Positions 50,450-63,289 of a DNA stretch of 63,369 nt are shown in pieces. Positions within the stretch are counted from its first letter, which is position 1. The number at the start of each line of letters is the position of its first letter. A program made the position numbers and the translations under genes. This DNA is from Candidatus Poribacteria bacterium (GTDB lineage: Bacteria; Poribacteria; WGA-4E; WGA-3G), in NCBI GenBank assembly GCA_009839745.1, contig VXPE01000016.1:1-63369 (forward strand), written 5' to 3'. A model generated the notes under the pieces. That model was not told the DNA's origin, made no database searches, and saw only the letters and a list, made by a program, of their open reading frames with translations.

Positions 50450-50911
50450 TTACTTCTTTTTCACTTTTCCCCACATTGTCGTTAGCAACTCCGGCTGGGG
50501 TGAAACAGGCAACGCATACGCCGGGTCAAACCAATCTCCACCGAGATTCCACTCGGTATGTGTCATCTGTGTTTGAACGCCACTGTTTAGATTGATTTTG
50601 AAAATTTGAAATCGTCCCATAATTTCTTGTGTATAGAGGAGTTCATCGCCATTTGGTGATAACTTGGGAATTTGTGCGTAATTGCCCGCTTCATCGACAA
50701 GTTGTTTGAGTCCGGTGCCGTCTCGGTTGATACTGTAGATGGTCTGTTTATTTTTCCATGCGAGAGGCGCGCGATCAGCCCGCGGGTTGAAGTCCGGTGG
50801 GAACGGATGCTTGTTCCAAGAAAAAACAAGTTTGGCACCAGTGGTAGCCCAAGATGGTCGATGTTGCCAAGACATCGCTTTCTTCGGTAGGATAACTCTT
50901 CCATGCCTCAT
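50450..50911 (-). pseudogene. C-terminal remnant of a PD40/TolB-like protein with WG-x-x-K tag
   Basis: The 153 residues match only the last third of the PD40 proteins nearby: YSINRDGTGLKQLVDEAG, KLSPNGDELLYTQ, FKINLNSGVQTQMTHTEWNL, then FDPAYALPVSP and the tail LLTTMWGKVKKK. There is no signal peptide or N-terminal propeller, and an in-frame TAA lies just upstream. It is probably a leftover of a duplicated PD40 gene, adjacent to another damaged copy at 51056-52028. Confidence 0.6.
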
Positions 50912-51055
50912 AACTTAAAGACACATTTATCGGTGAAAAGGGTGCATACTGCTAAAAAAAAAATGGAAAATTGTTTCAATCCTTTGACAGCGGAAATCCC
51001 GTTGGTTCTACGCGAGTAATTCCCACAAACAACAGGGTTCCTTTACAGCCTCACC

Positions 51056-52028
51056 TTACTCCTTCTTCACTTCCGCCCAAGTTGTTGTGAGTGTCTGTTT
51101 CGTTGGCTGAACAGGCAACACCCCCGGATCAAACCAATCGGCGCAAAAATTGTGATCACCACGGGTGAGTTTTTGGGTTTGACCCGTCCGCAAATTGATT
51201 TTAAAGAGTTGCGTATGATTTCCGATTTTCTGTTGATAAAGAAGTTCCTCTCCATCTGGAGACCAAGCGGGCTGGGACACCCTCCTACCCTTCTCAGAAA
51301 CAATCTGCCTGAGTTCCCCACCAAAGCGATTCATCGTGCAGATTGTCCCTTTAGGGAGATCCTTTCTCATTAATGGAACGTGGGCAAAAGCAATTTGGTC
51401 GCCATTCGGAGACCAAGCCGGTTCGTCCATTCGCAGCCAAGGCTCCGGATGGATCGTTTCTCGATCACCAGTCTGTGGGTTAGCAAGTCGAAGTTGGTAA
51501 CTTAGGGGATCTATGGCTTGTGTTAAGTGAAACGCGATCTGTGTTCCGTCAGGAGACCATGCTGGCTCCCCCCCAAGCCAACCTGTCGAAGCGACCCTCC
51601 TGGCATTGCGCCCAATCAATCCCCGCAATATAGATAGCCCATTCAGGAAGCTGTGTGTAAGCAATCCATCTTCCATCGGGAGACCATACCGCATATTCTC
51701 TATGTGCAAGCGTCTTAAACACTCTCCGCACATCTGTCCCGTCCGCATCCATAATGTAGATGTCCCATTTCCCATCGCGATCGGAGGTAAAAATAATCTG
51801 TTCGCCTGTTGGTGACCAATGGGGTGCCATATCACGCGCAGGGCGATTGGTTAATCTGACCGACTGACTCCCGTCTGGATTCATCATATAAATTTCCACA
51901 TTGCCATCACGGGTAGAGTTAAACACGATTTTCGCAGTTGCTGGAGCGTTTGCCAAAACAGGACATATCGTCTCACACAACAGCATCAGATTGAGTCCAA
52001 AAAAGACAGATAAACATGAGCGGTTCAT
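51056..52028 (-). pseudogene. Frameshifted PD40/TolB-like protein with C-terminal tag
   Basis: GGAGGAAG precedes the ATG at 52026-52028. The first frame gives a signal peptide and PD40 repeats (IVFNSTRDGNVEIYMMNPDG, FTSDRDGKWDIYIMDADG) up to YIAGIDW. The other frame continues GRNARRVASTGWLGG, PAWSPDGTQIAFHL and the tail LTTTWAEVKKE. Removing one base at about 51614-51615 (minus strand GATTGGG to GATGGG) restores one continuous PD40 protein of about 320 residues. Either a real mutation or an assembly error. The full-length relatives are at 56660, 58242 and 5328. Confidence 0.8.
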
Positions 52029-52337: not shown

Positions 52338-52415
52338 TTAATAGAAGTTTTTCGAGGCAAAGTTGATGCCAACAATGCCGCGAATATCATACGCTTGGAA
52401 AATGTCAAGATTCAT
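52338..52415 (-). pseudogene. Phosphomannomutase/phosphoglucomutase start, truncated after 25 codons
   Basis: The ATG at 52413-52415 overlaps the stop of the nucleotidyltransferase (ATGA). The frame reads MNLDIFQAYDIRGIVGIN, which is the start of alpha-D-phosphohexomutases (IF-x-AYDIRGIVG). It ends at TAA 52338-52340, and no continuation appears in any frame. Intact enzymes are about 450 residues. The coupling and order (nucleotidyltransferase then mutase) suggest a former sugar-nucleotide pathway pair feeding the neighbouring glycosyltransferases. Confidence 0.6.
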
Positions 52416-53095
52416 CGGAAACGTTGCCTTGCATATGCCAGCCGTTCTGGAACACCTATATCAATCCAGCTTGCATCGGTACGCAATGTCCAGAGATCGG
52501 ACACGTACGGGAAAACATCCCGTTCGACCGAGAAACTGTTCCGATCTTTGGAAAATGCATCGGCTATTGTTTCATCGAAAAGATACACCCCGCCATTGAT
52601 GTATCCTGCAGAATAGGTTAATTGTTTCTCACAGAAGGTTATGATTTTCCCGTTTCTGTCGGATATAATCTGTCCGTACGGACGTATATCATCAACGTAC
52701 ACACTCAACAGCAATCCCGTCATGTCTCGGCGAAAGTAATTTGACATCTCTCGGAGCGAAAAGTTATTAAGGAGCACATCGCCGTTCAGGACGAAAAAGG
52801 GTGACGCGGTGATATATTTCATAGCGTTCCGGATCGCGCCGCCGGTACCAAGCCTTTTCACCTCTTTCGCATATCGAATACGCACACCGTTGTGGTAGAT
52901 ACCTACGCGTTCATAAAGCACATCGTGCAGATGCCCTGAGGCGAGGATGACCTCCTCGACCCCTGCCTCTTTCAGCAGTTGAACCTGCCAATCTAATACC
53001 GTCTGATCAGCAATGTCAATCAAAACCTTAGGGACCGTCTTCGTCGTCTCACCCAACCGCGTCGCTAAACCACCGCATAAAATAATAGCCTACAT
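52412..53095 (-). pseudogene. HddC/GmhD-like sugar-1-phosphate nucleotidyltransferase with stop at codon 2
   Basis: The product matches NTP transferases of the heptose-1-phosphate guanylyltransferase type: AIILCGGLATRLGETTKTVP, then KVLIDIADQTVLDWQ, LGTGGAIRNAM, FFVLNGDVLLNN and the end SWIDIGVPERLAYARQ. The natural start (ATG 53093-53095) is followed directly by TAG, where relatives have an AAG (Lys). The next canonical start, TTG 53054-53056, is inside the nucleotide-binding loop and would delete GGLATR. So the gene is either inactivated by one base change, mis-sequenced, or started at a rare ATT. It is downstream of two glycosyltransferase genes. Confidence 0.7.
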
Positions 53096-53229: not shown

Positions 53230-54894
53230 CTACAGCACCGAATCGGAGAGTGTGTCTAAAATGTGACACGCCCTCTCTTTGTCCCCATCGTATATTTCAG
53301 TGAGAAGCATCTCAGCCTGTAGGCGTGAATGAGATTTGAGAAGCTCCTTAGCAAGTCCAACCTCAATACTTTCTGCGAAATAGTGTGGACGCTGAAGTGC
53401 CTGAGATCGGACAGTCCCATGAGCACCATTATATGAATAGCAGAACAGATTAGGGAAAGAATTATAAGTGGGCATCGTCTGCGTCTCGATTTGCCGATGC
53501 GTTAACGCGTGAACAAGATTAGCAAATTGCGCTGAAATCGCATCAGCAGAAAAACCTTCCGCCAATTTCCGTCCATCCTTAGAAAGCCGATCCATTTCTG
53601 TCGGATCTGCTAATAATTGCTTCAGGAAATCGAGAACACACCTCAAGTATTCGCGGTTGGTGATTCCTCTCTTTGAATCTATAAAAGCACAAGCGTTCCC
53701 AAGCTCTGGCATAGCAATACTCGTCCCTATGAGCGTGGGGACTCCACAAGCTAAACTCTGAAACAGTAGTGAACTCGAACTTTGTAAGGTCGCATGGAAA
53801 AAGCAGGTATCCATGGCGTTGAATAGCATCGGGAGCAAGTGTGGATCTGTCCCGAATTGTTCGGTCTCTGTATAAAAAACAAGGTTACCGGGTAGATTAT
53901 TTAAATACAGATCGGGTAATATAGGTGCGAATATGACAAAGAAGAGTTCTGGACACAATTGTGCCATAAATTTCCCAACACGATAATTGATTTCGGGAAC
54001 TTCTCCAGCGATGATTCCAACAACAGGTTTTTGGAAGACCTCTTGCGTATCAAAAATGGCACTTATACATCGTTTTCCTACCATCTTTTCTTGATATGGT
54101 CGAAACCTTTCCAGATCAATCGGATCAGGGATAAAAGAAAAATCAACGTCAGACGACAATATCTCTTGAAACCGATGTATGAGCCAAGGCGCATCAACAA
54201 CGATGGCATCAAAGGGACGCTTCGCTCCGTATATAGCCAAAACGAAATTTATAAAAGCGGCTTCGTCTCTAATCCCACCCTGGACACGCACAATAGTTGG
54301 AACACTATTCCAAGAAAAGAAAGGAATAACTCCATTCGCCTGCACAGATAAAAGCCCAAAATCAATAGGGGCGAACGCTATTGTTACATCATAGGTTGCG
54401 TTTATATAATAGGTTCGCGCGCGTTTAAGATCCGTTTCCATTGGAATAAAGTGAAAAACTTCATCATCGCGATAAGCTTCATCCCATTGATCTTTCGGAA
54501 GCCCAACGGTAACCTCCATATTCTGTGAAAGGGATTCTAAAAGCAGATAGATACTCCCATCCTCGGACTGTGAAGCCGGTATCTGACTTAGGAACGTCAA
54601 AAGGCGTAATTTTCGGTCCGCATCCGGGACGTAATGCCCTGCGTTCGACACAAGTAAATTTGATTCCGCAAAATACTTTAGGCGTTCAAACGCTTCAAAG
54701 ATTTCTGCTTCAGTGTGTTGTTCTTTTAGGTGTCTGATGATTTCTTCCCGGCTCCTTGAACCGCACAATTCCAACACGTTCCAAACAACGGGATCAACAC
54801 ATACTACTTCATTTCGATCCAAGTCAACGACGTAGTTTTGATTGTCAATCTGAAACTTCTCTATTTCATGAAGTTTTACAGGAAAATCTATCAT
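53230..54894 (-). CDS. Peptide-maturase-type N-domain fused to a degenerate GT4 glycosyltransferase
   Basis: Start set at ATG 54892-54894 (AAAAGG upstream) rather than the TTG. Residues 1-85 match the N-terminal recognition domain of SCIFF/QhpD-like radical SAM maturases (NYVVDLDRNEVVCVDPVVW, EIFEAFERLKYFAESNLLVS). Residues about 95-470 have the GT-B fold of GT4 (FFVIFAPILPDLYLNNLPGN, LACGVPTLIGTSIAMPELGN). The GT4 E-x7-E is replaced by Q371-x7-Q379 and the donor-binding R-x-x-PEKG loop by GEVPEINY, so it may be catalytically dead. The C-terminal about 50 residues are a helical module (LAKELLKSHSRLQAEMLLTE) shared with the next protein. Possibly a partner or scaffold for the active paralogue. 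Confidence 0.75.
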   Translation of the reverse strand: MIDFPVKLHEIEKFQIDNQNYVVDLDRNEVVCVDPVVWNVLELCGSRSREEIIRHLKEQHTEAEIFEAFERLKYFAESNLLVSNAGHYVPDADRKLRLLTFLSQIPASQSEDGSIYLLLESLSQNMEVTVGLPKDQWDEAYRDDEVFHFIPMETDLKRARTYYINATYDVTIAFAPIDFGLLSVQANGVIPFFSWNSVPTIVRVQGGIRDEAAFINFVLAIYGAKRPFDAIVVDAPWLIHRFQEILSSDVDFSFIPDPIDLERFRPYQEKMVGKRCISAIFDTQEVFQKPVVGIIAGEVPEINYRVGKFMAQLCPELFFVIFAPILPDLYLNNLPGNLVFYTETEQFGTDPHLLPMLFNAMDTCFFHATLQSSSSLLFQSLACGVPTLIGTSIAMPELGNACAFIDSKRGITNREYLRCVLDFLKQLLADPTEMDRLSKDGRKLAEGFSADAISAQFANLVHALTHRQIETQTMPTYNSFPNLFCYSYNGAHGTVRSQALQRPHYFAESIEVGLAKELLKSHSRLQAEMLLTEIYDGDKERACHILDTLSDSVL

Positions 54895-54917
54895 AAGTAT
54901 CAACCTTTTATCAGCAT

Positions 54918-56636
54918 CTATAAAGATGTTGCTTGCGTAAATCCATTGACGCGATTGAGAATATCAGCGACCGAGTGTCTGTCTTTCACGATGTGCATAA
55001 GGACCGCCTCCACTTCATGAACCGTCCGACGCTCCAATAACGTTAAAGCCAATGTCGTCTTCCAATCTTGATGATAACTACTGTGCATCAGCGGCTGCTG
55101 ATTATGCTGCTCCGTTATGTTCGTCAAAATCGACTGGCACTGCAATCGGCCGTCTAATAAATCATAGGAAGGCACAAACGAAGTTTTGAAACGCGTTCGT
55201 GAAGAAAACTGCTTTTTTCTTTTCAGGCGTTCGTAGAGCCTGACGAGTTTCTTTGCGGTTGTATCCCATTTAAATTCCAATGCCCGCTCGCGAGCCTGTT
55301 TACCAAGTTTCATTCGACAGGCATCGTCATTCAAAAGTTCTTGAATCGCTGTCAAGAGTGCTTCGGGTTCAACATACCCGGCGAAACTGCCAATGTCTTG
55401 ATCGAAGGTCTGACATGCCACAACGCGCCCCGCGTCTCCGACGACTTCTGGCAAACCCGCGAAGTTTGTTACGACGGGTGGCACCCCACACGCCATTGTT
55501 TCGAGAACAGCGTTGCCAAAAGCCTCCTCTCCAACGATAGAAGGGAAGCAATGGACATCAAAAGTATTTAAATACAACGGGAGCATCTCTCTCGGCGGCT
55601 GCTCGCCGATATAGATTAAATTCGGGGGTAACTTCTGGAGCTGATACGCATGTAAAGTCGGGGCAACCACAAAAAACAGGACCTCAGGAAGCATTTTGGC
55701 TATTTTGATAAAGATGCCCGCGCCTTTCTCAGGTTGGAAACGTCCAAAAAAACCGACGATCTTCTGATTTCTTATCTCTGGTCGATTGAGCATCTCTGCC
55801 ACTTGAGAGCGAGCCTGTGCTTTATCCATCGGACGGAAAAGGTCCGAATCAACACCGTTGGGAATGACATGAAAACAGTCCGTATCAAGAACATGTTGTG
55901 CATAGAAATCTTTGATAGAGTGCGTTGGCGTTATGAAAGCATCATGTTCGTTCATTGCGGCATAAGTGCATAGGATAGAATCAATCATTGACCCGTTGTG
56001 TCCGCGGGGTGAGCCAAGCCGGCTTATCAGGGGAATTCCCGATGAAAATAGATGCAGTGGCATCTGTTCCACCATGTCCAATGGGATCATCGGTATGAAA
56101 ATCCCATCAATCTGGTTTTGCTGAAGCTGAAATAAAAAATTGTGTCTTGAGGTGCCTCCGGAAAGGGTGTAAATCCCGTCTGAAATGACCTCCGATTTTG
56201 CGGCGTGGAAAAAAAGATCTGCATACTTCGACAGTGCACTCAGAATTTCTTTAGAGGCGAGACGGTATCCACTCTTAATGTATGTTTTATCTGACATCCA
56301 CGTTTCAATAGGACTTGCCACGAGGATTCTGAGGCGGTTTTTCTTTTCGAGCGTTTCACGCCCCGTATCTCCAAGAAGAAGTCCCATTTCCTCATAACTG
56401 TGTAGCTGCTCAAGAGCCTGATAAATGAGTTGAGGCTCATACCTTTCAGATAAAACTTCGAAAATCTCATCTGTCGTTGATTTCGGGCACAGTTGTAGTA
56501 TCTCCCAGACCAAATCGTCAGTTTCTAATACCTGTCCTACGTCTAAGTCAACGATGAAAAGCCGATCTTGACGCGTAAACGGATGCAACCGATGCGTCGG
56601 TTTTGGAGGTTGAAATAAGCGTTGTGTAGATGTCAT
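54918..56636 (-). CDS. Peptide-maturase-type N-domain fused to a GT4 glycosyltransferase
   Basis: Same three-part layout as the following gene. Residues 1-95: RLFIVDLDVGQVLETDDLVW, YQALEQLHSYEEMGLLLG. GT4 domain: IVGFFGRFQPEKGAGIF (donor loop), HCFPSIVGEEAFGNAVLETM with E371-x7-E379, GLPEVVGDAG. Helical tail from about residue 510: KTTLALTLLERRTVHEVEAV and ADILNRVNGF. The catalytic residues look intact. In known systems the N-domain type binds leader peptides, so this protein may glycosylate a peptide recruited by it; the small proteins at 57.8-59.6 kb are the obvious candidates. That is inference. The next paralogue begins about 24 bases downstream. Confidence 0.8.
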   Translation of the reverse strand: MTSTQRLFQPPKPTHRLHPFTRQDRLFIVDLDVGQVLETDDLVWEILQLCPKSTTDEIFEVLSERYEPQLIYQALEQLHSYEEMGLLLGDTGRETLEKKNRLRILVASPIETWMSDKTYIKSGYRLASKEILSALSKYADLFFHAAKSEVISDGIYTLSGGTSRHNFLFQLQQNQIDGIFIPMIPLDMVEQMPLHLFSSGIPLISRLGSPRGHNGSMIDSILCTYAAMNEHDAFITPTHSIKDFYAQHVLDTDCFHVIPNGVDSDLFRPMDKAQARSQVAEMLNRPEIRNQKIVGFFGRFQPEKGAGIFIKIAKMLPEVLFFVVAPTLHAYQLQKLPPNLIYIGEQPPREMLPLYLNTFDVHCFPSIVGEEAFGNAVLETMACGVPPVVTNFAGLPEVVGDAGRVVACQTFDQDIGSFAGYVEPEALLTAIQELLNDDACRMKLGKQARERALEFKWDTTAKKLVRLYERLKRKKQFSSRTRFKTSFVPSYDLLDGRLQCQSILTNITEQHNQQPLMHSSYHQDWKTTLALTLLERRTVHEVEAVLMHIVKDRHSVADILNRVNGFTQATSL

Positions 56637-56659: not shown

Positions 56660-57745
56660 TTAATTTGCTCCTTGTTTAAGTCTGCTCCAGAGGATTACCT
56701 TCTGGTTACTTCTCGGAGAGATATCAAAGTATCCTTCGGGTGCCCATGCCGGGTACATATTACTTGACATATCCACTTCCCCTATAAGAATAGGTCTCTC
56801 ACGCCCGTTACCCATCGCGTCTATAACATAGATGTCAGCAAATTGGAACGGCCATGGATCATCTGAAAAAACATAAGCGATCCATTTACCGTCAGGTGAC
56901 CAAGCAGGATAATAAATGGCTGGATTCGGAAAGCCCAATACCTTCATCGGTTTCAGTATGGGACCGCCTTGGGTGAGTTGGCGGAAGTTTTTGCCCTCTA
57001 TGTTAATGGTATATAGGTGCATTCGCTTCTCATGAGGGATATGAAGTCCGAAAGCAATTCGTTTTCCATCGGGAGACCACGCACACTCACCGTGAAATAT
57101 ACCGTTGATCATCTGTATCTCTTTGTCATCAAGTCGTCTCAGTCTTTTCCCACTGGTGTCTATTATATAGATGCCTTTCCTTTCACCCCGCCCGCGAGAA
57201 ACAAATGCGATCCATTGACTGTCAGGAGACCAAGTGGGGCGGCCGTTCTTTCCGCGGTCGGTTAATCGCCTCAGATTCGTGCCATCAATATCCATTCTGT
57301 AGATGTCCGCGTTCTGTTCATGACCGCCAGAAACAAAAGCAATCCATTTGCCATTAGGCGACCAAGCTGGAAAATAATCATCAACTATATTATGTGTCAA
57401 TTGACGGTGTTCTTTTGTTTTGGTGTTTATCACGTAAATCTCCGAGTTTCCATCTAGGTCGTAGGTATACGCTAAGAAACGACCATCAGGCGACCATGTT
57501 GGCTGGAATTCACGCGCCGGATCAGTTGTGAGTCTATGGAGATTCCCACTATCCTTGTTTAGGATATAGATATCAGAGTGCCCCATTTGGTTGGAAGCAA
57601 ATGCCAGAGTTCCAAACCCGGAGGCTTGTGCCCAAGTATTTATAAAGAATAGACTGTAGCCAAACATCAACACAATTCTAAGAATTGCACACGCAAGATT
57701 CCCTTTCATCAAAACAGGGAGAGTATCAATCGTCGGAAACTTCAT
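56660..57745 (-). CDS. Exported PD40/TolB-like propeller with divergent C-terminal tag
   Basis: CAAGGAGTCC precedes the ATG at 57743-57745. A signal sequence ends near FINTWAQASG. Six or seven PD40 repeats follow (IYILNKDSGNLHRLTT, PTWSPDGRFLAYT, IYVINTKTKEHRQLT, IYIIDTSGKRLRRL). The C-terminus VILWSRLKQGAN is a weak version of the W-x-x-[IVL]-K tail. It lies immediately downstream of small protein A and upstream of the glycosyltransferases, mirroring the PD40 gene behind small protein B, so propeller and small protein may form a pair. Confidence 0.85.
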   Translation of the reverse strand: MKFPTIDTLPVLMKGNLACAILRIVLMFGYSLFFINTWAQASGFGTLAFASNQMGHSDIYILNKDSGNLHRLTTDPAREFQPTWSPDGRFLAYTYDLDGNSEIYVINTKTKEHRQLTHNIVDDYFPAWSPNGKWIAFVSGGHEQNADIYRMDIDGTNLRRLTDRGKNGRPTWSPDSQWIAFVSRGRGERKGIYIIDTSGKRLRRLDDKEIQMINGIFHGECAWSPDGKRIAFGLHIPHEKRMHLYTINIEGKNFRQLTQGGPILKPMKVLGFPNPAIYYPAWSPDGKWIAYVFSDDPWPFQFADIYVIDAMGNGRERPILIGEVDMSSNMYPAWAPEGYFDISPRSNQKVILWSRLKQGAN

Positions 57746-57822: not shown

Positions 57823-58086
57823 TTAGTGATCAACGCACTCTGAGTGCCATTCACCTATACACCCAGCGAACGGAGACCAGTCATCACACCAAAACAGACA
57901 GATTTCTCCGTCAGGACAACCTCCAGGATTACAATTGAAATGGGCGTGGGCGGTCGGTGTTAGCATTGATTGCGCCAACAACAAACTCCCACTTGCGATA
58001 CCTAATGTGAGGGGTGCCTTGACCCCTACACGCCCTTCCTCGGACGCGAGGAAGTCACGGAATTTATCGCGAAGGTTCTTTTTCAT
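57823..58086 (-). CDS. Small exported Cys-rich protein A (candidate modified-peptide precursor)
   Basis: AAAGGAG precedes the ATG at 58084-58086. Residues 1-49 are 73 % identical to protein B: a basic start, then DFLASEEGRVGVKAPL and a hydrophobic stretch ending AHAH. Residues 50-87 diverge and hold six Cys (52, 57, 63, 67, 76, 84) with conserved GEWHSECV. EEG-RVGVK followed by a hydrophobic run resembles class III (Flp/prepilin) signals cleaved after Gly by A24 peptidases, and a FlaK-like A24 peptidase lies 4.5 kb upstream. Alternatively it is a Sec signal cleaved after PTAHA. Conserved leader with variable Cys-rich core fits a modified peptide, but the product is unknown. Confidence 0.7.
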   Translation of the reverse strand: MKKNLRDKFRDFLASEEGRVGVKAPLTLGIASGSLLLAQSMLTPTAHAHFNCNPGGCPDGEICLFWCDDWSPFAGCIGEWHSECVDH

Positions 58087-58087
58087 A

Positions 58088-58219
58088 TCGGTTTCTCTCC
58101 TTTCCGCCAGTGCTTCTGTTCCGGCAAGATTGGATTCCCAAAACTGTTTGGGAACACCATCTCCAGGACGAACCCTATCGTTACGGGAGTGAAGCCCTCC
58201 CCCTGGACATGCTTTCTAA
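58088..58219 (-). promoter_or_regulatory. Structured 5' leader of small protein A
   Basis: Nearly identical to 59640-59775 (seven substitutions over about 118 nt). Predicted stems (plus-strand coordinates): 58135-58142 with 58147-58154 (TTCCCAAA/TTTGGGAA) and 58105-58110 with 58121-58126 next to the RBS. In this copy the RBS-proximal stem keeps pairing through G-U wobbles relative to copy B. Class not recognised; possible riboswitch-like or attenuator RNA. Confidence 0.55.
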
Positions 58220-58241
58220 AGGATTTTCAATCTGTATGCCA

Positions 58242-59246
58242 TTAGTCTTGTGTTTTGAGTTTCCCCCACGTGGTCGTCAAAAGAGATGGCTGGGGCGAGA
58301 CCGGCAAAGCAAACGCAGGATCGAACCAATTCGCGCGGAGGTTATCCCCCCGGTGTGTCAGCTGTTCTGGGACACCGCCGTCCAAAATGGCTTTAAAGAG
58401 CTGTCTGGAGCCACGACCCTGATGATTGTAAATGTTGTAAATGAGTTCATTCCCGCGTGGGGACCAGGTAGGGTTAGACACTGAAGTGTTTTCTCCAGAA
58501 TCAATAATCCTCTCCAGTCCGCTGCCATCTCGATTCACAATATAGATACTTTTGATATGCACTCCCACCTTACCCCCTAAAAAACCGTCCTCTTGCCTAC
58601 CGGTCCAAGTAAAGGCTATCTGGGCACTATCGGGTGACCAGGTAGGTCTATACATCCAAATACTCTTTGGAAGAAGTTTCTCTTTTACATGCGTTTGTAG
58701 ATTGATAATCTCGATTCTGACATCCGGAAATCTGAGATTGCCGTTGTCAGCCCAAACAAACTCCCCTGCCATAAAGGCGATTTCAGCACCGCTGGGAGAC
58801 CACGCGGGCCATAAGCCATCCGTAAGTTTTTCCTCATTTTCTCCGTCAATTGAGGCGGTGTAGATAGAGAATGTGTGAAACCGGTGATAAGCAAGTGCTT
58901 TGCCATCAGGCGACCACGTTGGAAACTCTCTGCCTATTAATTTTTTGAATACCTGACGCACATTCGCTCCATCTGGGTCCATCAGGTAGAGATCCTCTAT
59001 CCCATCTCGATCCGAGGTGAAAAGAATCTGTTCACCTGTCGGTGACCAGACAGGCGCGGCATCCTTGGCACGGTGCTGGGTTAAGTTTATCTGATCAGAG
59101 CCATCCGGGTTCATGCTATAAATCTCAAAGTTGCCATCGCGTCTTGATGTAAATATAACTTTGGCAGTTTCTGGGGCTTTTGCGAGAACAACGAAGAGGG
59201 GAACAAAGATAAGGAATGTGCTAAGCGCATAACATAAGCGTTTCAT
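58242..59246 (-). CDS. Exported PD40/TolB-like propeller with C-terminal WG-x-x-K tag
   Basis: ATG 59244-59246 is chosen because GGAGG precedes it by nine bases; the longer reading places the RBS inside. Signal peptide MKRLCYALSTFLIFVPLFVV, then PD40 repeats (IFTSRRDGNFEIYSMNPDG, VWSPTGEQILFTSDRDG, SWSPDGK-like WSPDGKALAYH, PTWSPDSAQIAFTW). It ends LLTTTWGKLKTQD. Closest in this window to the damaged genes at 50450 and 51056, which share DWFDP/NWFDP and LPVSPQP before the tail. It lies directly behind small protein B. Confidence 0.87.
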   Translation of the reverse strand: MKRLCYALSTFLIFVPLFVVLAKAPETAKVIFTSRRDGNFEIYSMNPDGSDQINLTQHRAKDAAPVWSPTGEQILFTSDRDGIEDLYLMDPDGANVRQVFKKLIGREFPTWSPDGKALAYHRFHTFSIYTASIDGENEEKLTDGLWPAWSPSGAEIAFMAGEFVWADNGNLRFPDVRIEIINLQTHVKEKLLPKSIWMYRPTWSPDSAQIAFTWTGRQEDGFLGGKVGVHIKSIYIVNRDGSGLERIIDSGENTSVSNPTWSPRGNELIYNIYNHQGRGSRQLFKAILDGGVPEQLTHRGDNLRANWFDPAFALPVSPQPSLLTTTWGKLKTQD

Positions 59247-59368
59247 GAGGCTTTCCTCCATAATGTCTGCTGTAGAAAGTCATGATAAATTCCCTGGAAA
59301 TTATCTGAGAAGTCGGTTCTACTGATAAAAAACAGCAGAACCGACGAAATGCACAATTTGGTGTGTTA

Positions 59369-59638
59369 TCAATTAACACACGAAGAGTGCCATACCTCTA
59401 CCCAGTCATTCACACCGGCAGACCATTCGTCTTCTATCCATTTGTCACACCGTTTTCCGGCATCGCAATCTCCATCGTCTTGACACTCCATATGTGCCTG
59501 AGCGGCATTTGGGAGTATAGTTTGTGCTAACAACAAACTCCCGCCTGCGATACCTACTGCGAGCGGTGCCTTGACCCCTACACGTCCTTCCTCGGAGGTG
59601 AGGAAGTCACGAAATCTATTGCGAAGGTTGCTTTTCAT
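59369..59638 (-). CDS. Small exported Cys-rich protein B (candidate modified-peptide precursor)
   Basis: AAAGGAG precedes the ATG at 59636-59638. It shares its first 49 residues with protein A (DFLTSEEGRVGVKAPL, GGSLLLAQTIL, AQAH) but then differs: four Cys (52, 58, 64, 87), an acidic CQDDGDCDAGKRC pattern and the conserved end VWHSSCV. The Cys-x5-Cys-x5-Cys spacing resembles extracellular Cys-rich modules. Same two processing options as protein A. The cassette leader RNA, small protein, PD40 gene is present twice in tandem, so this arose by duplication followed by divergence of the C-terminal half. Confidence 0.7.
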   Translation of the reverse strand: MKSNLRNRFRDFLTSEEGRVGVKAPLAVGIAGGSLLLAQTILPNAAQAHMECQDDGDCDAGKRCDKWIEDEWSAGVNDWVEVWHSSCVN

Positions 59639-59639
59639 G

Positions 59640-59775
59640 TCGGTTTATCTCCTTTCTGCCAGTGCTTCTGTTCTGGCAAGATTGGATTCCCAAAACTGTT
59701 TGGGAACACCATCTCCAGGACGAATACTCTCGTTGCGGGAGTGAAGCCCTCCCCCTGGACATGCTTTTCAATGGC
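59640..59775 (-). promoter_or_regulatory. Structured 5' leader of small protein B
   Basis: Four stems can be drawn (plus-strand coordinates): TCCAGG 59714-59719 with CCTGGA 59754-59759; GGGAG 59737-59741 with CTCCC 59749-59753; TTCCCAAA 59687-59694 with TTTGGGAA 59699-59706; TGCCAG 59657-59662 with CTGGCA 59673-59678, the last abutting the RBS. Nearly identical to the leader of protein A. Confidence 0.55.
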
Positions 59776-59831: not shown

Positions 59832-61682
59832 TTACTGGCACGGTGTTCCACTTGCCCGTAACAACTGATTGGCACGGAATTTATGCCCATCAACGAAAAT
59901 CGTCGGTGACGCTTTAACACCGAGTTCTGCGGCACGCTGAATGTTTTCCCGGAAAAGTTGTTCTGCTTCGGGACTGTCAAATAATGCTTGAATCTTTGCG
60001 ACATCAATACCGTATTTCTCGGCACAGTCCTCCCAGCTCTTGTCCAGTTTTTTGCCTCGGCACAGAATATAGTCGAGATACTTATCGGGGTATTCTTGTG
60101 CTATGAGGAGCTGCCGAATGTTCTCTGCTACTTCAGGGTATCCATGTAGGCTCGTGAATGGCGTTACCTCTTGGAGAGAAACAGTCGCTTTCTCTTGGGC
60201 AATAAAGCGGAGTTTAAAGTCGATCGTATCGCCAAACTCCTTCACGATCGGAAAGACTTTCTCCTCCGCCTGAACACCGAACGGACAGTAACTCATTACG
60301 AAAAGTTCCAAGGTCGGTTTTCCCATTCGGGAAACCCGAGAGGCCAATAATTCCTCAAGGTTCATCGGTTGGCGACTGTGATCTACATCCTTGGTGTGGA
60401 GCGCTACCACTTCTGTAAACCCAGGCGAATGTTTTGTGTCGTGGCATGTAAGACAGAGAGATGTTTCCTCACCACTACGAATATTGCTCTTTTTGGGATT
60501 GCCGACGTGCTGCTTGCCGGGACCGTGGCAGGTCTCACATTGCACACCCTTAAATGTCGAAGTCTCATCCCCAATCTGAAAACCTGTCTGATAGCCGAAG
60601 CCGGTGGTATGACAGGAGACACAATTCGGATCGAAGTATCGTTCTTTTTTTACAAGGGTTTCAAAAGCGAAAGCGTGCCGTGTCACAGACCACTGGAGAT
60701 ATTCTTGCTCATGGCACCGCTGACAGGCAGTCGCTGAGACATATCCGTTTTGCGGATCCTGCTCCAATCGTTGTTCGGCAAAAAGAGGTTTATGTTCAGA
60801 CGATTGTGCGGCCTTTTGATAAAAATCGGTAAGCAGTTGACGCACAGATTCATCTTCTGGGACATCACCTGTCAGTGCAAGTTGTGCTGCGTGATGACGA
60901 CTCAGTTTCCCGTCTGCATTTACCCAGAGTGCCAAAAATCCTAATGTTTTCCCTTCAGATGTTGATCCGACCCAAAGAGGTCCGTCCGTTTGTTGTCTGT
61001 GTTCCATTCTTTCAGGACTGATAAGAATATCAGCATTGGATAGTTGTTCGGAAGGATGCGTCCCCAAGGCAATAGAAACATCTGCATTTGGCAATTCGCT
61101 CTCGGTTGAAGTAGATGCGATAAGAATAGAAAGTTCATCCACAGTTTTTACAATCGCTGCCTGGGTGTAAATGGCATTCTCGCCGAGAAATGGGAAGGAT
61201 GCTGCAGCACGTTGTTCAATAAGATACGCATCTCCATAATTGAGATCGTTTTGACTCAGCGCGACCGCGTCGTATTCCATCATTGACATCGCCTTTAGGT
61301 TGATCTGACACCGCTGGAAATCTATATCCTCGGTGCCGTCGAAAATATCCCCTGCGTCAACCAAGAGTGTTGGAATCCCCTGCTTGCGAATTTCTGATAC
61401 AAGATAGGCGCGCCTCGGTAGTCCGCCTGATTGCTCTTGATAGCATCCACACGGTTCCAGATGGCTTCTCGTGCCCCCCGTATACAAGATAACAACAGAA
61501 GGCGGTTCTGGGCTTTTGAGGACTGCAAGGACATTTTCAATGGAATCACCTATTGGCTGACGTGCCTGTTGCTTGATTTCTTGAATCTGTTGCTGTCTGC
61601 GGGATTCCGCCCAATGTGTATACAATGGTGGAGCCGCGATGGCAAGCGTTAGTAAAATTAAAGTGACAATAGCAAGTTTCAT
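59832..61682 (-). CDS. Exported fusion: metallophosphatase-like, tetraheme cytochrome and thioredoxin-like domains
   Basis: An N-terminal membrane anchor (residues 1-20) is followed by a UshA-like metallophosphatase domain: HLEPCGCYQEQSGGLPRRA (75-92), LLVDAGD, ALSQNDLNYGD. Four CxxCH haem sites follow at about 320, 354, 382 and 410 (CQRCH, CVSCH, CETCH, CLTCH), as in cytochrome c554-like proteins. The last 150 residues are a thioredoxin/DsbA-like domain of the VKOR-associated type: FVMSYCPFGVQAEEKVFP (Cys464 alone, no CxxC), ASPTIFVDGHKF. It starts one base after the stop of the A24 peptidase. It could supply redox or disulfide chemistry to the Cys-rich proteins; this is inference. Confidence 0.8.
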   Translation of the reverse strand: MKLAIVTLILLTLAIAAPPLYTHWAESRRQQQIQEIKQQARQPIGDSIENVLAVLKSPEPPSVVILYTGGTRSHLEPCGCYQEQSGGLPRRAYLVSEIRKQGIPTLLVDAGDIFDGTEDIDFQRCQINLKAMSMMEYDAVALSQNDLNYGDAYLIEQRAAASFPFLGENAIYTQAAIVKTVDELSILIASTSTESELPNADVSIALGTHPSEQLSNADILISPERMEHRQQTDGPLWVGSTSEGKTLGFLALWVNADGKLSRHHAAQLALTGDVPEDESVRQLLTDFYQKAAQSSEHKPLFAEQRLEQDPQNGYVSATACQRCHEQEYLQWSVTRHAFAFETLVKKERYFDPNCVSCHTTGFGYQTGFQIGDETSTFKGVQCETCHGPGKQHVGNPKKSNIRSGEETSLCLTCHDTKHSPGFTEVVALHTKDVDHSRQPMNLEELLASRVSRMGKPTLELFVMSYCPFGVQAEEKVFPIVKEFGDTIDFKLRFIAQEKATVSLQEVTPFTSLHGYPEVAENIRQLLIAQEYPDKYLDYILCRGKKLDKSWEDCAEKYGIDVAKIQALFDSPEAEQLFRENIQRAAELGVKASPTIFVDGHKFRANQLLRASGTPCQ

Positions 61683-61683
61683 T

Positions 61684-62831
61684 TTAAAAGAACCTATTTA
61701 TAAGGGAGATTATCCCAAGATGAAAGGGACCCTTACAGAGTGCCGTCAATAGCCCACCAAATGCGATGACGGGTGCGAAACGAATCGCGGGTTGAATCCG
61801 AATCTTGTTGTCAAAGTGGACAAAAGCATTTTCTTTAACTAAACTTTGTAATTCACTGATTGTTGCGGCGGAGAGTCCGACTGGATCAGTTGTTACGAGT
61901 TCGGCACCTTGGCGTTCATTTCTATCCATCTGTTTCTCATAACGGACACGACCGTCCTCCCCTTCCTTCTTGACGATGTGTTCACTGAGGATCATCCCTA
62001 CTTGGAGGTGTGACACTTCAATTATTCGATCAAACGCCGCACTCGCTAATTGAAGCACGAACTGCTTGGCTACTACAAAAATAAGCAGATAAAACACCAA
62101 GAAAAAAGCAAGCCCACCCAACAGGAGTCCGAGGGTAGGCGCGTTTTTAAACATCAACCAGCTGCTGCCAAAGAGAACAACTACAACTGCTGTTGGGGTT
62201 TTCAACAATGCCCCCAATACCTTCTGGACACCGGCGAAAACAGTAAGCGTCAGCACAAGTTGCATCACCCGATCCAACTGCCATCCCACTTTTTCAAAGA
62301 GGTAAGTGAGTCCAGCACCGATGAGGATGAACTGAAGCAAACCATAGAGTTTCTCCAACACCGAATCACGATCAAGCGCGGACTTGGCAAGTTGAATGAG
62401 CACTGCACCTGTCCCCCGGACCCGGACTAACTTGACAATGAGATAGCCCACTGCGACAATGGTATAGGGGATGATGATATTGAGTGCCAGCACGATAGGT
62501 GGGAACATCAACATCTCTTGGATAGATCCAAACCACCATGAGGGGAGTATCAAACATAGACCCCAAAGAACTTAGAGTCGCCGGGTGAAAAGACACCAAA
62601 TGTATAAAACCCGATGGCGATGGCACCGCTAATGGCAAAGAGTATTGTAATATTTAACGGCGTGGTTAATCCCAAGAACCAACCCATCAGTTGCCCGATG
62701 GTGCCTGCGTAAATGAGGCACATTGAACAGAGATTGGGTATCTTGTAGGTTCTTGTATCTGTATAGCAAGCATAACTACAAAAGGTAAGTCCAATAGCAA
62801 GCAGGATAATTTCGTAAGTTGCTGTACTCAT
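61684..62831 (-). pseudogene. FlaK-like A24 prepilin/preflagellin peptidase with a single-base frameshift
   Basis: The first frame (62831 to 62550) has the first catalytic Asp in YTDTRTYKIPN and the second in SPGDSKFF, then stops. The second frame (from about 62553) continues with membrane helices and the FlaK-type soluble domain (LQVGMILSEHIV, LSAATISELQSLVKE, IRIQPAIRFAPVIAFGGLL). Adding one base in the run at 62561-62570 gives GDSKFFWGLCLILP, just what relatives show after the GxD motif. So this is one gene of about 380 codons, disrupted or mis-sequenced. It would cut class III signals after Gly; the nearby small proteins carry such a candidate site. Confidence 0.72.
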
Positions 62832-62872: not shown

Positions 62873-63289
62873 TTAGAATTCCGTTAGAGCCAGGCTGCAT
62901 AGGCTTTGATAAAAATTAGTATTTTCCATGTCTGAAAAGATTTCGGGATTGAATCCCGGGAGTACCAACAATAGACGCGGACTCGCCTTTTTATCTTTCT
63001 TCGGGAAAAGCACTGGAGACTTCGCGCAGCGAGTGAAGAGCAATCCCTGTTTTGCGTACCCGGTTAAGGTCTCAAACGCTTCCTCAATATCTTCATCGCT
63101 ATATGCGGGCTTCAGTATTTCTGTTATCGCATCTGTAGTCCGGGTCTCCGACAGTTTCAGAATATCGACTATCACAGCAGAGATTTCTATGAGACTTGCT
63201 TTATCCAAGTCCACGGCGTAAAGCCGACCACCTTTTTTAAAGATATGGAGTTGATGAAGAGGTCTTGGAAAATCCAGCATATTGTCCAT
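62873..63289 (-). pseudogene. Third peptide-maturase-type N-domain, truncated glycosyltransferase
   Basis: Residues 1-90 align well with the N-domains of the 54.9 and 56.6 kb proteins (RLYAVDLDKASLIEISAVIV, DIEEAFETLTGYAKQGLLF). A linker follows, then only the first about 35 residues of a glycosyltransferase (PRLLLVLPGFNPEIF) before a stop. Either a truncated paralogue or a stand-alone recognition domain with a short tail. As it begins at a normal ATG and keeps the N-domain intact, it could still be made and bind a leader peptide. Confidence 0.6.

Follow-up and report, generated by a model that had tools for sequence, protein, structure and literature searches.

Leader-bearing, cysteine-rich peptides of Poribacteria are encoded with RRE-glycosyltransferases, A24 prepilin-type peptidases and a structured 5' RNA

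The window, by which we mean the whole stretch of DNA analysed (63,369 nucleotides of contig VXPE01000016.1, assembly GCA_009839745.1, Candidatus Poribacteria bacterium), carries on its reverse strand two genes for small Cys-rich peptides, here called A and B, together with the following associated features.

52412..53056 (-), nucleotidyltransferase-like (sugar-nucleotide) gene, named from sequence reading and cluster neighbours; conserved beside a phosphohexomutase-like gene
53230..54903 (-), partner protein of the RRE-glycosyltransferase, with an RRE-like N-terminus (matching the RRE part of NF040492) and a divergent, glycosyltransferase-like remainder
54918..56636 (-), glycosyltransferase (RRE-GT) with an N-terminal RRE at about residues 15-90, a GT4 domain and a C-terminal bbb-aaa unit at residues 484-570; Pfam Glycos_transf_1, 3e-21
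56660..57745 (-), PD40 beta-propeller protein, after peptide A; Pfam PD40, 4e-40
58086..57823 (-), peptide A, 87 aa: leader, residues 1-18; n-region, hydrophobic run and A-x-A, residues 19-48; six-Cys core, residues 49-87
58101..58214 (-), structured 5' UTR RNA before peptide A; cmsearch 114.6 bits, with covariation
58242..59261 (-), PD40 beta-propeller protein, after peptide B; Pfam PD40, 3e-21
59638..59369 (-), peptide B, 89 aa: leader laid out as in peptide A; four-Cys core
59653..59766 (-), structured 5' UTR RNA before peptide B; cmsearch 120.7 bits, with covariation
59832..61682 (-), UshA-like/cytochrome c554/DsbA-like thioredoxin fusion (UCD); Pfam Cytochrome_C554, 5e-16, and DSBA, 5e-9; NF041198
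61684..62831 (-), A24 prepilin-type peptidase with an Arc_PepC C-terminal part; Pfam Peptidase_A24, 2e-6; split into frames 62831..62550 and 62553..61684
62873..63289 (-), 138-aa RRE-GT remnant, an RRE part with a short tail that looks like a truncated RRE-GT start

PD40 propeller genes also lie in several overlapping frames at 50450-52028 (-); these are probably decayed cassettes.

A preliminary description of this DNA had presented A and B as tandem paralogues with a fixed leader and a diversified Cys-rich half. Direct counting bore out its figures: residues 1-49 are identical at 36 of 49 positions, the cores hold six Cys in A and four in B, and both proteins close on WHS-x-CV (EWHSECVDH in A, VWHSSCVN in B). 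The genes are paralogous but not direct neighbours: between them is a PD40 propeller gene encoding 339 aa (59261..58242), and a PD40 gene is found downstream of each. Although the cores differ in Cys number, they are not unrelated, sharing a C-x(4-5)-C-x5-C-...-C scaffold on top of which peptide A has an extra Cys pair. The likeness of the two genes begins upstream of the ATG, where 180 nt are 84% identical and include the conserved structured RNA. Chance is excluded as its source, since the genome holds about 19 more copies and the family recurs in 40 of 85 Poribacteria genomes.

The RNA element spans 114 nt. P1 and two inner hairpins make up a three-way junction, and two more hairpins stand ahead of the ribosome-binding site. 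Across 40 distinct sequences, 91.5% of cells pair and 19 of 32 pairs are changed on both sides, two values reached by 0 of 500 shuffles; sliding the partners destroyed the signal. The alignment was built without structure and the structure was drawn on it by eye, using a cleaner sequence set, the alignment of all upstream regions being too mixed to fold. A covariance model located the element in 29 of the 85 Poribacteria genomes and recovered both copies in the window, and a search of Rfam gave no match above threshold, a loose threshold returning chance-level rows alone. The leader motif of the peptides lies within the next ~140 nt of 69 of the 71 mapped RNA copies (42 loci). Exclusive association with peptide genes was rejected, a few copies heading a methyltransferase, A24, PD40 or frameshifted peptide gene. 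The element may control expression of the peptide genes.

Within its own genome (141 contigs, 5.04 Mb), peptide A had 21 matches in a sequence search, of which about 20 are credible paralogues. A profile search placed the family in 40 of the 85 genomes of the phylum. All 24 loci found by scanning for one motif, EEG[KR]VGVK, belonged to Poribacteria, and the family may also occur outside the phylum. The fetched loci yielded 108 distinct peptide sequences, and deeper relatives, drawn from other orders, classes and genera, share the layout of the leader and have different Cys patterns, many with a CC pair. Two leader peptides at L151:9566-9769 and L151:9881-10078 have E-x-G-x-V-G and a short tail, without a Cys-rich core. 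Pooled dN/dS over the 38 nearest pairs rises from 0.11 in the leader (taken through position +5 of Gly18) to 0.18 in the hydrophobic part and 0.41 in the core. These values, rough because they come from a simple counting method with greedily chosen pairs, exclude equal conservation of the two halves. The earlier proposal of a leader/core contrast, as in precursors of modified peptides, is supported by this difference and by a confident RRE fold encoded beside the peptides. No description of the family was found in the literature searched; it is real and, as far as checked, apparently undescribed, consisting of small secreted Cys-rich peptides of sponge-associated Poribacteria, a phylum known from sponges (PMC9426513).

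Gly18 is the sole residue invariant throughout the 120 aligned leaders (98/98 near and 22/22 distant); Glu16 is present in 118 (98/98 near, 20/22 distant), as is Lys or Arg at position 23 (118/120). Residues 1-18 follow the pattern ...F-[LVI]-x-S-E-x-G, and downstream of Gly18 come [KR]-V-G-x-K, a hydrophobic run and, in most peptides, A-x-A (77 of 98, against 26 in shuffles), located in 72 of those 77 at 30-31 residues past the Gly. A hydrophobic run followed by A-x-A comprises, at the level of sequence, the features of a substrate of Sec and signal peptidase I, and the stretch after Gly18, read alone, has the appearance of an ordinary Sec signal peptide.

The preliminary description had further seen a class III prepilin site at Gly18. 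The invariance of Gly18 and the presence of dedicated A24 peptidases with both catalytic Asp uphold part of this claim, but the surroundings of the site depart from the canonical pilin arrangement (hydrophobic +1, Glu+5, hydrophobic run directly after): position +1 is charged (K/R/H in 96/98), position +5 is K/R in 98/98 instead of Glu, the hydrophobic run begins ~8 residues past Gly18, and A-x-A follows at a fixed distance. The Flp_Fap profile (PF04964) matched none of the peptides of the genome at E<=10, and Flp membership was rejected on this ground. Flp-like minipilins, cut by A24 after Gly18 and displaying the Cys-rich head on a hydrophobic run retained as membrane or filament stalk, would be consistent with the resemblance by eye of F-[LVI]-x-x-E-x-G plus hydrophobic run to Flp, with the linkage of A24 to the peptides and with the two coreless L151 leaders; we nevertheless judge them improbable, given the empty profile search, the charged +1 and missing Glu+5, the A-x-A kept directly ahead of the core, and the mapped clusters, in which no assembly ATPase was recognised (the single clear T2SSE ATPase of the genome lies elsewhere, at C45).

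In the window, the A24 gene has one internal stop or frameshift just past the catalytic GD, for which either genuine decay or a fault of the assembly may account; intact copies occur in paralogous clusters of the same genome. By Pfam search, five of the six A24 genes of the genome sit in peptide clusters, and the sixth, at C42, has the length and layout of an ordinary prepilin peptidase. Both catalytic Asp are conserved in the cluster peptidases, with GD in 26 of 26 copies. Peptide and A24 co-occur in 35 genomes, the peptide is alone in 5, A24 alone in 3, and 42 have neither (Fisher p 9e-15, a value that overstates independence because the genomes are related). The five peptide-carrying genomes without an A24 match are G002, G039, G051, G059 and G074, several of which are fragmented. 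Four genomes with no RRE-GT match (G034, G043, G045 and G046) retain both the leader motif and A24, so the motif is independent of the glycosyltransferase. The linked A24 gene speaks against signal peptidase I as sole cutter of the peptides.

The gene order that recurs across the mapped clusters runs RRE-GT, RRE-GT, [peptide, PD40]n, methyltransferase, A24, UCD fusion, peptide, nucleotidyltransferase-like and phosphohexomutase-like genes, and ECF sigma factor. PD40 follows 48 of 82 mapped peptides. In L102-L105 the cluster is reduced to peptide, PD40, A24 and fusion; it lacks glycosyltransferases, and the sigma gene lies opposite. The cluster sigma factor crosses the membrane once and continues into an extracytoplasmic beta-propeller (L022:10246-13158, L026:911-3883, L102:172-3126); it might be freed by intramembrane proteolysis.

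The AlphaFold model of the RRE-GT (pLDDT 85.6) shows a middle part whose fold matches the GT4 enzymes GlgM and MshA. Its RRE domain, modelled in bbb-aaa order with pLDDT 90.7, matches CteB (Z 11.2 over 78 residues, 30% identity), the lasso protein TbiB1 (Z 7.5) and PqqD (Z 6.9); an RRE-fold protein encoded with the precursor, one mark of an RRE-dependent RiPP system, is present at the locus. In the same model, residues 484-570 form a second bbb-aaa unit that is possibly a second RRE. Two RRE-GT-type genes are paired in most clusters, and RRE-GTs occur in 33 genomes, all 33 of which carry the peptide. These observations bear on a rival reading, which we regard as unlikely though deserving serious attention: that the peptides are plain Sec-secreted disulfide-rich proteins with a long n-region, cut by signal peptidase I alone, while A24 and the RRE-GTs act elsewhere, A24 for instance freeing the ECF sigma factor and the glycosyltransferases building a surface glycan. 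The A-x-A motif in 77 of 98 peptides agrees with it, the architecture of the sigma factor, with its one span and outer propeller, makes it a plausible substrate of a GxGD protease, and gene linkage does not name the substrate of A24. However, such a reading leaves unexplained the invariant Glu16/Gly18 and the K/R23 across the whole phylum, the RRE domains, whose known relatives bind leader peptides, and the restriction of RRE-GTs to peptide-carrying genomes.

An even number of Cys was counted in 86 of 98 cores, which suits disulfides and the DsbA-like domain. Ser or Thr stands at -1/-2 of the last Cys in 75 of 98 cores, against 21 in shuffles, and is a possible glycosylation site; since it is present in the lineage lacking the glycosyltransferases too, its role may instead be structural. 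A glycocin-like peptide, in which the RRE-GT would place a sugar on a Cys thiol as in sublancin, might be suggested by the joint occurrence of glycosyltransferase, Cys-rich core and thiol oxidoreductase. We hold this to be very improbable, because the even Cys number means that a Cys free to accept the sugar is not the usual case, and the RRE-GT has a GT4 fold.

The reading that we favour, while granting it somewhat less than an even chance, is that A, B and their relatives are precursors that carry a two-part leader and yield disulfide-rich peptides for export. The leader would serve for RRE docking and, once cut by A24 at Gly18, unmask a Sec signal, modification preceding export. The first part (residues 1-18) would hold the precursor in the cytoplasm, where the RRE domains of the paired glycosyltransferases, if present, would dock on it. 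In clusters with an RRE-GT pair, a sugar would be added prior to export, with the Ser/Thr beside the last Cys as candidate acceptor. The dedicated A24 membrane protease would then remove the leader after Gly18 on the cytoplasmic side, leaving [KR]-V-G-x-K, the hydrophobic run and A-x-A as an ordinary short Sec signal peptide. The unmasked peptide would be exported by Sec, signal peptidase I would make a second cut after A-x-A, and the four or six Cys of the peptide would be oxidised to disulfides with the aid of the DsbA-like domain of the UCD fusion. The notion of a protease-gated signal peptide comes from the way in which the stretch after Gly18 reads alone. Observed are the family with its conservation, the linkage of the genes, the RRE fold, the catalytic residues of A24, A-x-A, the even Cys number and the structured 5' RNA; the two cuts and the order in which they occur, docking, glycosylation, the pairing of disulfides and any biological target, whether host or competitor, are our inference. 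Against this reading, the Gly18 site has neither the hydrophobic +1 nor the Glu+5 of prepilins, the A24 gene is frameshifted in this very cluster (although the genome has other copies), and five peptide-carrying genomes have no A24 match. A24 could also have a different membrane protein as its substrate, the cluster's membrane-tethered sigma factor being one example. A wider proposal is offered with more hesitation, and we lean against it as things stand: that these peptides are a new ribosomal peptide class, in which an A24 (GxGD) protease removes the docking segment and unmasks a Sec signal peptide, RRE-guided glycosylation precedes export, and a new structured RNA that may regulate expression stands in front of each gene.

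Four known systems come closest to these clusters. MNIO RiPPs with Sec signal peptides (bufferins, oxazolins; PMC12452194) likewise have a Cys-rich core behind a Sec-type signal and a modification that must precede export; in contrast, the Poribacteria clusters had no match to an MNIO or DUF2063 partner among the scanned neighbour genes, carry RRE-GT4 and A24 instead, and place a longer conserved N-terminal stretch ahead of the signal. RRE-dependent RiPPs (SCIFF/CteB, lasso TbiB1) share an RRE fused to a modifying enzyme beside leader-core peptide genes, whereas here the enzyme is a GT4 with a second C-terminal bbb-aaa unit and the precursors have a Sec-type signal with A-x-A. Flp/Tad and other type IV prepilins also have a dedicated A24 peptidase and Glu-x-Gly ahead of a hydrophobic run; the Poribacteria peptides differ in Lys/Arg at +5, the charged +1, the later hydrophobic run, A-x-A, the absence of an Flp match and the absence of recognised filament genes in the cluster. 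Glycocins (sublancin and kin) combine a Cys-rich peptide with a glycosyltransferase and a thiol oxidoreductase, but the present system has an even Cys number, a GT4 fold with RRE and other leader processing.

Sec signals have been called rare in RiPPs, and for MNIO peptides the need to delay Sec export until modification has been stated, its timing being named as an open question (PMC12452194); a protease-gated signal peptide would be a testable answer. RRE-glycosyltransferase fusions, listed in RRE-Finder as absent from known classes (PMC7470986) and so noticed without a class, are given a use by the Poribacteria family. For A24 peptidases the peptide clusters likely represent a new use. Aspartic or prepilin peptidases go unmentioned in the consulted text of a review of leader proteases (PMC10885120). 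The family also adds a covarying RNA without an Rfam match above threshold and, to the biology of Poribacteria, a large and fast-evolving repertoire of secreted peptides.
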